Positions 20,795-23,694 of a DNA stretch of 36,879 nt are shown here, one piece after another. Source of the stretch: Tissierellia bacterium (GTDB lineage: Bacteria; Bacillota; Clostridia; Peptostreptococcales; Acidaminobacteraceae); contig DUPT01000032.1 in assembly GCA_012838225.1 (NCBI GenBank), forward strand, positions 1-36,879. Direction: 5' to 3'. Both the position numbers and the translations under genes were made by a program. Every line of letters begins with the position of its first letter. Position 1 is the stretch's first letter. The notes below the pieces were generated by a model that made no database searches, was not told the DNA's origin, and saw only the letters and a list, made by a program, of their open reading frames with translations.

Positions 20795-21347
20795 GAGGAT
20801 TACTTTCGTCTTCAAACACCATGGTGTCTTCATCGATCAGCTTTTTTCGTATCCGGCGATAGGGCTCGGAGTTGCGATCAGGCCAAGGCTCATTTTGGAC
20901 CGGTACATAGATCATGATGACCGGCTCCTCGGCGGCATAAAACTTCTCGGAGTAGACCTCGATATCATAGTCCTCGGTCGGGTAGAGCCCCATCTCCGGC
21001 AGGATCTCATGATAGATCCGATCGAAGCTTGAGCCGATGGTATTGGCCGGGCCCTCATGCGGATAGGCCAGGTACTGATGGTGAGAAATGAACCAGGCCT
21101 GCATGCCGTGGGGCACTTGATTGACCTTCTCGACCTCGACGCCGGCCAGATAGGTGATCCGATCCTCTCCCTGATATAAGGGTTCACACACACCATAGAA
21201 CTCGGTATCGGTCTTGACTCCCTCGATCTCTTCGATCCGTTCGGCCAACTCCTCCCAGGCAGAGGCGATGGCAGTGTATTCATTGACGCCTTTATGCGGG
21301 ATTCCCAGTATCATTCTATCGGGCAGATTGACGATTTCCGGCTTCAT
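20778..21347 (-). CDS. GyrI-like/effector-binding domain protein
   Basis: A 189-aa protein with the effector-binding fold shared by GyrI (SbmC) and the C-terminal domains of AraC and MerR-type drug regulators. Typical parts are RMILGIPHKGVNEY near the start, YGVCEPLYQGEDRITYLAGVEV in the middle and MYPTEDYDIEVY-type sequence (LYPTEDYDIEVYSEKF) near the end. It carries no DNA-binding domain. Stand-alone members bind small hydrophobic molecules and some hydrolyse cyclopropane compounds. Start ATG 21347 has AAGGAG 8 nt upstream. It is divergent from the PAP2 gene with mirror-image promoters, and the nitroreductase gene overlaps its end. Confidence 0.82.
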   Translation of the reverse strand: MKPEIVNLPDRMILGIPHKGVNEYTAIASAWEELAERIEEIEGVKTDTEFYGVCEPLYQGEDRITYLAGVEVEKVNQVPHGMQAWFISHHQYLAYPHEGPANTIGSSFDRIYHEILPEMGLYPTEDYDIEVYSEKFYAAEEPVIMIYVPVQNEPWPDRNSEPYRRIRKKLIDEDTMVFEDESNPHETDL

Positions 21348-21364
21348 ACTATGTTCTCCTTTTA

Positions 21365-21387
21365 TGGTACTATAGAAATATATACCA
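21365..21387. promoter_or_regulatory. Overlapping divergent extended -10 promoters
   Basis: Plus strand: TGG-TACTAT (21365-21373) for the PAP2 gene. Minus strand: TGG-TATATA (21387-21379) for the GyrI-like gene, with TATAGT (21374-21369) as an alternative. The two lie within a TGGTA...TACCA inverted repeat, so polymerase could probably occupy only one at a time. Neither has a clear -35 box. Confidence 0.45.
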
Positions 21388-21419
21388 CAAATCACTCCCC
21401 CACCAACAAGAGGAAGTCT

Positions 21420-22016
21420 ATGACAAAACGAATGATGATCGTGACATCGGTCCTGGCCGGCCTGACCGCTCTTTTCTGGGCGTCTTTTCTCGATGAGACA
21501 CTCAGCCAATGGGTCTATCAGCTGCGCCTGCCGGTGCTGACCAAGCTGATGGAGGCCTTCAGTTGGCTGGGCTATGTCTACTTTTTGGTCCCGATCAATC
21601 TGCTGATCCTGATCGTTTTGTTTCGACCGGACCGCCGACTGGCACTGGCCATCCCGCTTGGTACCTTGGCAATCTGGCGTCTGAGCGAATGGCTAAAGAC
21701 GCTCATCGAGCGGCCCCGGCCCGATCTCTCACCGATCGCCATCGAGACGAGCTATTCCTTTCCCAGCGGTCACGCCATGAGTAATACCGCCTTCTACCTG
21801 CTGCTGATGCTGATCGCTCCGACAAATAAGTACTGGCGCCGGTTTTGTATCTCTATGATCGTGATCATCGGATTCTCCCGGGTCTATCTCGGAGTCCACT
21901 GGCCAAGCGATGTCTTTGGCGGCACCGCCATTGCCATGATCCTGGTCCACCTGATCTATCAGTTGATCGCTCGGCGGCCCGAGTCGGTCCCGGACAAACC
22001 AAGCCTCACGAATTAA
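21420..22016 (+). CDS. PAP2-family membrane phosphatase
   Basis: A 198-aa integral membrane phosphatase of the PAP2 (phosphatidic acid phosphatase type 2/undecaprenyl pyrophosphate phosphatase) family. All three motifs are seen: KTLIERPRP (about residues 94-102), SYSFPSGHAMSN (about 113-124) and SRVYLGVHWPSDVFGG (about 159-174), with the catalytic His residues in the second and third. Five or six hydrophobic helices are present. Candidate substrates are undecaprenyl pyrophosphate, phosphatidylglycerophosphate or phosphatidic acid. Start ATG 21420 has AGAGGAAG 3 nt upstream; the frame is open further back but that part overlaps the divergent gene. It is a single-gene transcript with its own terminator. 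Confidence 0.93.
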   Translation: MTKRMMIVTSVLAGLTALFWASFLDETLSQWVYQLRLPVLTKLMEAFSWLGYVYFLVPINLLILIVLFRPDRRLALAIPLGTLAIWRLSEWLKTLIERPRPDLSPIAIETSYSFPSGHAMSNTAFYLLLMLIAPTNKYWRRFCISMIVIIGFSRVYLGVHWPSDVFGGTAIAMILVHLIYQLIARRPESVPDKPSLTN

Positions 22017-22051
22017 AAGCTCAAGGACCGGCTTGTCCTTGAGCTTTCTTC
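22016..22051 (+). terminator. Terminator of the PAP2 gene, probably bidirectional
   Basis: AAGCTCAAGGAC (22017-22028) pairs with GTCCTTGAGCTT (22035-22046) around a 6-nt loop, with TTCTTCTT behind it. On the minus strand the stem is followed by TTTAATT, so it may also end the selenoprotein transcript. Confidence 0.85.
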
Positions 22052-22091
22052 TTGTGGTTCGTTAAGTTTATTTTTTGGCTATAGATTAGTA

Positions 22092-22337
22092 TTAGTCTGT
22101 TAACTTTTGTTGGACGAGGCACTCCGCTTCGTCCTCTTCGGGAAATCTGGACAACGCTTTTTTAGAAAAAAGCAGCTCATCCTCCAGGGTGATCTCAAAT
22201 ACGCCGCCCGAGGATGGAATCAGTCGGAGTTCGGCCAGATCATTCTTGTTTTGATCGAGTACCTTTTGAGCCAGGCTCACGGCCTTTGTCAGATAGCCTC
22301 AGCCGGTACAGTATTCGATCGACAGGATCTTCTTCAT
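22092..22337 (-). CDS. SelW-like (Rdx family) selenoprotein with in-frame TGA as Sec13
   Basis: An 81-residue thioredoxin-fold protein of the SelT/SelW/SelH (Rdx) family, thought to act in thiol redox control. The frame opens at ATG 22337 with GGAGG 6 nt upstream and reads MKKILSIEYCTG-TGA-GYLTKAV, continuing in frame to TAA at 22092. The TGA (22301-22299) falls exactly at the U of the CxxU motif (Cys10, Sec13). The downstream LIPSSGGVFEITLEDELLFSKK-type sequence is the family hallmark. A small hairpin 13-26 nt after the UGA could be the SECIS. A standard caller would start at GTG 22280 and lose the active site. Non-selenium relatives use CxxC. No sel genes are in the window. Confidence 0.9.
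22273..22285 (-). promoter_or_regulatory. Candidate bacterial SECIS hairpin
   Basis: On the minus strand AGGC-CGTGA-GCCT: a 4-bp stem with a 5-nt loop that has G at the second loop position, with the loop starting 18 nt after the TGA. That distance fits known SelB-binding SECIS hairpins in bacteria. The stem is short and no strong lower stem was found. Confidence 0.45.
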
Positions 22338-22398
22338 TCAAAACCTCCATAATCGAGTCGTCATATCGCCTGTCTATCTATTTACCCAATTTATGGAA

Positions 22399-22410
22399 TG
22401 AATCGATTCA
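22399..22410. repeat. 12-bp perfect palindrome
   Basis: TGAATCGATTCA lies just after the anti-sigma stop, in the 79-bp gap before the SelW-like gene. It may be an operator or a remnant hairpin; there is no T run. A weak TTGGGT-18-TATGAC promoter follows it on the minus strand. Confidence 0.35.
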
Positions 22411-22416
22411 ATTTAT

Positions 22417-23175
22417 CTATTGTCGGGCATCGACATAGCCAATCGTCTCTTGGCCATCGATCTGATAGCGGAAGCGATAGATCGGGTGGATCAGTGACGC
22501 CTCCTCCGGCCGGGTGTAGCTTAGGTAGCCGGCGGTGATATCGGTCGGACCCAGTCCGCCGACCTGATCGCTTAGACGTTGTTTGGCTTCCTCGAAGCTG
22601 ATGATCGCCACCTGATCGGTCACCGATAGGGCCAGCTGATGGTCGGCTTCACCCATCGGTCGATGGACCGCATACTCGACGATCGCCGCCGTATAGTTTG
22701 ATTCGAGCGTTAAGTCGCCTGAGCTCTCCATCTCCGCTTCTTCATATCGTTCCTCCGAGGCGGCTATTTCGTCGAGACCCGGCATAAAGATCGGCAGCGA
22801 CTCCGGTGTTCGATCAGACTGCCACGGCGTCTGGGCGAGCTCTCGGTCAAACTCCTCATCGGATAGGACAAATCGATCGGGTTGGGCGGCGGCTTCATCG
22901 GCGGCCGCCATCGGCGACGCCTCTTCTTCGACGATCTTCTCAGGCATCGCTTCAGGGGCTTGGGCACCCTGAGCCGACCGAAGCTGGGGCAGCAGCTGCC
23001 ACAGTCCGATCACGATCACCAGACCAACGATGGCCGATGAGACACGCCACAGCCAGCGAAAGCGTTGCTGGGACGTATCCGGTTGAGCCCGGCGAATATT
23101 TCGCAGCATGGCCTGCTTTTGCTCCGTCGTCGGGGACAGTTCATGCAGGCTTTGTTTCAATTGATGTTTATTCAT
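22417..23175 (-). CDS. Probable membrane anti-sigma factor
   Basis: A 252-aa single-pass membrane protein. Residues 1-38 are a charged cytoplasmic segment (MNKHQLKQSLHELSPTTEQ), residues 39-62 a membrane helix (WLWRVSSAIVGLVIVIGLWQ), then an acidic Ala/Glu/Pro-rich linker and an external domain ending FRYQIDGQETIGYVDARQ. It is placed directly after an ECF sigma gene and overlaps it by 8 bp, with AGGAGG before the ATG, which is the usual arrangement for an anti-sigma partner. No HxxxCxxC zinc motif (ZAS) is seen, so the assignment depends on context and topology. Confidence 0.7.
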   Translation of the reverse strand: MNKHQLKQSLHELSPTTEQKQAMLRNIRRAQPDTSQQRFRWLWRVSSAIVGLVIVIGLWQLLPQLRSAQGAQAPEAMPEKIVEEEASPMAAADEAAAQPDRFVLSDEEFDRELAQTPWQSDRTPESLPIFMPGLDEIAASEERYEEAEMESSGDLTLESNYTAAIVEYAVHRPMGEADHQLALSVTDQVAIISFEEAKQRLSDQVGGLGPTDITAGYLSYTRPEEASLIHPIYRFRYQIDGQETIGYVDARQ

Positions 23176-23641
23176 GAACCTCCTCCAATTCCAGTTTGAG
23201 CAGTTCACGGGCCTTTTGCATCCGTGAGCGCAGGGTCGATTCGTTGAGCTCCAGGTATTGACTGATCTCTCTGGTCGAATAGCCCTCGTAGTAGTACATA
23301 TAGATGATGGTTTTATATTCATTCGGCAGGTTTAGCACCTGCTCCAAAACGTGATCGGTCTGAGGGTCCTCACTGCTTAGGAGCGGGGCCACGTCCTCAA
23401 AGTCGGTCCGTTTCTTTTTATACCAGTGGCTCAGCTGATTTTTGCACAGATTCGAGACCGTGACGATCAGCCAGGCCCTCTCATGTGACTCCGATTCAAA
23501 CGCAACGGGCTTGTTCATCAGATTGATGAAGGCCTGCTGCGTCATATCCTCAGCGTCGGGTCGGTTTTTCAGGTACATCATCGCCACCCGGTAGACAGTA
23601 TCCACCTGACGATGATAGATTTGTTCAATATCCACACTCAT
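23168..23641 (-). CDS. ECF-type RNA polymerase sigma factor
   Basis: A sigma-70 family factor of about 157 aa with only regions 2 and 4, as in extracytoplasmic-function sigmas. Region 2 includes VYRVAMMYLKNRPDAEDMTQQAFINLM (the DAED motif near residue 30) and region 4 includes LPNEYKTIIYMYYYEGYSTREISQYLELNESTLRSRMQKAR, a helix-turn-helix that reads the -35 box. It would direct polymerase to a small stress or envelope regulon. The start is uncertain: ATG 23641 has AGGA immediately upstream, GTG 23635 would have better spacing, and TTG 23662 extends the frame. The overlapping anti-sigma gene probably holds it inactive until a signal arrives. Confidence 0.92.
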   Translation of the reverse strand: MSVDIEQIYHRQVDTVYRVAMMYLKNRPDAEDMTQQAFINLMNKPVAFESESHERAWLIVTVSNLCKNQLSHWYKKKRTDFEDVAPLLSSEDPQTDHVLEQVLNLPNEYKTIIYMYYYEGYSTREISQYLELNESTLRSRMQKARELLKLELEEVHE

Positions 23642-23694
23642 TCCTGTCTGACTAAGATACAATCTCGGTCGGCTAAATGTCTAAGCTGTTTTTA

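Follow-up and report, generated by a model that had tools for sequence, protein, structure and literature searches.

Can a frame with a TGA at its thirteenth codon encode a complete protein? The question is raised by a short locus in the DNA analysed here, a stretch of 36,879 nucleotides (henceforth the window) from the draft genome of a Tissierellia bacterium (G000; 1.85 Mb, 77 contigs, 97% complete). On the minus strand, a frame of the Rdx family (22092..22337; henceforth selW) opens with an ATG at 22337, has a coding span of 22337-22095 and closes with a TAA at 22094-22092, giving 81 codons plus the stop. Its single in-frame TGA, codon 13 (22299..22301, minus strand), occupies the last position of the motif C10-T-G-U13. 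Translated with this TGA as U, the product (MKKILSIEYCTGUGYLTKAVSLAQKVLDQNKNDLAELRLIPSSGGVFEITLEDELLFSKKALSRFPEEDEAECLVQQKLTD) has no further internal stops, and a Shine-Dalgarno sequence, GGAGG (22344..22348, minus strand), is found 6 nt before the ATG. A plain ORF list offers instead a 62-aa ORF from GTG 22280. A sequence-only reading of this DNA had already claimed a complete Rdx-family frame from ATG 22337 with the TGA at the Sec position of CxxU, otherwise unbroken and behind a good Shine-Dalgarno sequence, which a gene caller would reduce to the 62-aa fragment; each of these claims held. We are nearly certain that the gene product is a selenoprotein of the SelW-like type (Rdx, PF10262), with Sec inserted at codon 13 via SelB and a downstream stem-loop.

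In a profile search, the translated frame matched Pfam Rdx (PF10262) with 76.1 bits (cut-off 22.6, E 2.5e-21), residues 6-75 aligning to positions 3-72 of the 74 in the profile, unbroken across the TGA. The model TIGR02174 (CXXU_selWTH) was also exceeded (61 bits, cut-off 34.2), and the NCBIfam equivalog NF041051 (SelTWH_Campy) gave 75 bits, below its curated cut-off of 88, so that the protein is not placed under that narrower model. An AlphaFold2 model built from 26 sequences, with Cys substituted for Sec, reached a pLDDT of 90.8 and predicts the order beta-alpha-beta-beta-beta-alpha, in which C10-U13 links strand 1 to helix 1; the strand (3-10) and the helix (16-33) flank the CxxU motif in a thioredoxin-like fold. 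The top PDB matches of the model were Rdx proteins (2obk, 2oka and 2fa8; TM 0.82-0.85). Rdx proteins are thioredoxin-fold thiol oxidoreductases. The protein is predicted to be a small thiol/selenol oxidoreductase in which Cys and Sec form a selenylsulfide, and it is likely to serve thiol redox reactions or the defence against oxidants; a glutathione interaction has been reported for SelW (PMC1088965).

The sequence-only reading had placed the gene behind an ECF sigma/anti-sigma pair and had seen in this neighbourhood a possible tie to stress control. A sigma-70 family (ECF-type) factor with Sigma70_r2 and Sigma70_r4_2 domains is present upstream (23168..23662, minus strand), and the gene next to selW (22417..23322, minus strand) is a putative anti-sigma, without a Pfam match and so assigned because it follows the sigma gene. 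Since selW follows the latter by only 79 nt on the same strand, and no terminator was found in between, co-transcription with the sigma pair is possible in G000. A selenoprotein within the ECF sigma regulon, acting as a stress-controlled redox effector, would add to our explanation of the locus rather than replace it, but we consider it improbable. No homologue of the sigma factor or of the putative anti-sigma was found at any other selW locus (1.5-5 kb flanks), the selW neighbourhoods vary between lineages, and the pair adjoins selW in G000 only, so the tie to stress control did not survive the comparison. In particular, G001, the one same-genus genome compared, keeps the pair in a syntenic block (L156:1262-2785, contig C67, corresponding to 22016-22417 of the window) where the putative anti-sigma and PAP2 genes abut with no selW between them. 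As no selW was found anywhere in G001, the gene is variably present within the genus; a SelW tree of 79 columns does not place the window row and does not discriminate between a loss from the sister species and a gain by transfer. The PAP2 superfamily gene itself (21294..22016, plus strand, Pfam match) converges on selW, and the tail-to-tail gap holds a 13-bp hairpin (22016..22047), an intrinsic terminator by its plus-strand score and plausibly a bidirectional one. Elsewhere in the window there is a tRNA gene at 54-126 on the minus strand (Rfam 57.8 bits).

The Sec reading draws support from the behaviour of codon 13 among relatives. Counting its own genome, the protein was found in 16 of 61 relatives, with one TGA each; in every one of the 16, selA exceeded the cut-off, and the protein is missing from the seven genomes without full selA. 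Among 394 genomes from this order, the protein was present in 41, and the Sec codon is TGA in 42/42 copies, a conservation that, on the sequences compared, is far beyond chance. Elsewhere, the best 80 matches among 84,980 species searched comprise 76 Sec and 4 Cys forms (the rarity of Cys forms in Sec-using organisms was noted already in 2006; PMC1794560), and TGA stood at the CxxU position in every Sec copy whose sequence was examined. Relatives with a normal stop and a degenerate downstream part, which the sequence-only reading had named as evidence that would speak against it, did not turn up among those compared. In a draft of 77 contigs, and with a TGA one base away from a Cys codon, one might suspect a Cys-type Rdx gene broken at its second active-site codon by a nonsense mutation or a sequencing error. 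This we regard as extremely improbable, given that the same TGA recurs in all copies of the order, in isolate genomes and in divergent proteins elsewhere, that the frame beyond it is intact and conserved, and that the stem-loop downstream covaries (see below); the conserved TGA rules out a pseudogene or sequencing error. The order also contains a second, divergent SelW-like subfamily (YCxSUG... FNNK/FHNK; L020-L024 and L041-L043), with Sec in every copy found.

The genome is equipped to decode Sec. A complete set is clustered within 26.4-33.7 kb of contig C45, consisting of selD (C45:26394-27314), selA (C45:27463-28779), selB (C45:28806-30590) and tRNA-Sec (C45:33563-33655; 76.9 bits), i.e. 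all four components by which a Sec-decoding organism is recognized; the sequence-only reading had proposed to search for them. Its accompanying claim that, if the gene is real, the organism makes selenoproteins is supported by this cluster. The selD gene has an in-frame TGA of its own and a hairpin with a GGU loop, and the glycine reductase gene grdA (contig C10) also carries an in-frame TGA, so that the predicted selenoproteins of the organism number at least three (SelW-like, SelD and GrdA). The grdA gene adjoins grdB (G000:C10:9585-11114), for which a match without TGA in the matched part was obtained; this adjacency suggests a Stickland-type metabolism. A genome-wide reassignment of TGA to Trp, Gly or Cys would also keep the frame open through codon 13, but its probability is negligible, because TGA serves as a normal stop (it terminates 10 of the 30 window ORFs above 150 aa, chosen greedily by length), which rules out a genome-wide code change, tRNA-Sec and selA/selB/selD are present, and the gene occurs in 0/7 relatives without full selA.

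The sequence-only reading had suggested looking for a bacterial SECIS element just after the TGA. A candidate upper stem-loop, AGGC-CGUGA-GCCU, is located at 22273..22285 (minus strand), 17 nt after the TGA, its apical loop (22281-22277) having G as the second nucleotide and U as the third. It was present in both the minimum-energy and the centroid structure of the 53 nt from the UGA, which fold at -11.3 kcal/mol, and it fits the published bacterial SECIS model (taken from PMC13188914) in its 4-bp upper stem, its 5-nt loop with G2 then U and its spacing of 17 nt. The GTG at 22280 falls within this loop, so that a 62-residue fragment starting inside the SECIS is corrected to an 81-residue SelW-like protein. 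Taken alone, the window hairpin is not unusually stable (z -0.74 against synonymous recodings, -0.33 against shuffles); folding of a single sequence is uninformative as proof of a SECIS, and covariation was used instead.

The signal emerges from the relatives. Over 101 distinct genes, SECIS-type hairpins had a mean energy z of -1.18 (s.e. 0.13) against synonymous recodings. The 16 genes with the window's loop type were selected on codons 6-8, with pairing of the outer positions left out of the rule; 96% of their cells were paired and covariation was 0.280 against 0.180 +/- 0.024 in shuffled data (0/500), although the count leans slightly in favour, as L092 met the codon rule but was excluded for its shifted hairpin. 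The outermost pair of this stem varies between A-U, C-G and G-C. An 11-mer, GCCGTGAGCCT, is common to the same-family L010, L014, L018 and L019 and to Clostridium polynesiense (L055). In 40 distant relatives, picked by taxon and with a register 4 nt further on than the window's, the stem was 97% paired with 25 compensatory cells, and covariation reached 0.480 against 0.165 +/- 0.023 (0/500) in a shuffle control that leaves the relatedness among genes in place; sliding the partner by 1-3 columns gave at most 58.5% pairing. Compensatory changes often fell on synonymous third positions; those of two alanine codons, for instance, pair with each other as C-G, G-C, A-U and U-A. Judging from these alignments, the SECIS structure in the relatives is under selection beyond the protein code.

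The position of the hairpin differs between lineages. The loop lies 17 nt from the UGA in the window's family and 21 nt in distant phyla, and 100 of the 101 genes can form one of four registers, a count that is only descriptive because the registers were found by inspecting the same data. Alkaliphilus and relatives (L015, L071, L074, L075 and L140-L149) use another stem register, with a loop UGGAnN ~19 nt after the UGA. The odds seem roughly even that the hairpin has slid among about four registers within one orthologous gene (loop start ~17/19/21 nt) while nearly the same amino acids were kept. If so, SelW-like genes would make a natural series for the spacing tolerance of SelB.

The selenoprotein proposed by the sequence-only reading is thus supported by the Sec machinery, the covarying SECIS-type stem-loop and the conserved TGA in relatives; together with the intact frame and the predicted Rdx fold, these are the observations on which the following scheme would stand. 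SelB carrying Sec-tRNA-Sec would bind the stem-loop, located 17 nt beyond the UGA, and permit insertion of Sec at codon 13 of the selW-like frame. The product would be an 81-residue thioredoxin-like protein with the redox motif CxxU where strand 1 ends. Actual Sec incorporation is a prediction here, and a 2026 review (PMC13188914) treats bacterial SelW-like proteins in general as high-confidence predictions and not as proven. They have stood in selenoprotein catalogues since 2005-2006 (PMC1088965, PMC1794560), hence the window gene adds one member to an already known group, and with the family known for twenty years the finding is ordinary in general terms.

The closest known systems are the bacterial SelW-like selenoproteins (PF10262, CxxU) of Alkaliphilus metalliredigens and Desulfotomaculum reducens (PMC1794560), which share with the window protein the family, the motif and the place of Sec, as well as a SECIS right after the UGA and Sec-using Clostridia as hosts; the difference is in the organism only, with ~50-65% identity to the nearest relatives compared. 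Rdx proteins of the Cys type from Proteobacteria and Streptomyces (2fa8, 2oka, 2obk, 3dex) are alike in fold and aligned motif, but in the alignments shown, 2fa8 and 3dex have CxxC where the window protein has CxxU. Vertebrate selenoprotein W (mouse SelW, 2npb) has a homologous fold and CxxU in common with it, yet is distant (sequence E 0.37, TM 0.69), and the eukaryotic SECIS is found in the 3' UTR (PMC1088965), whereas that of the window directly follows the UGA.
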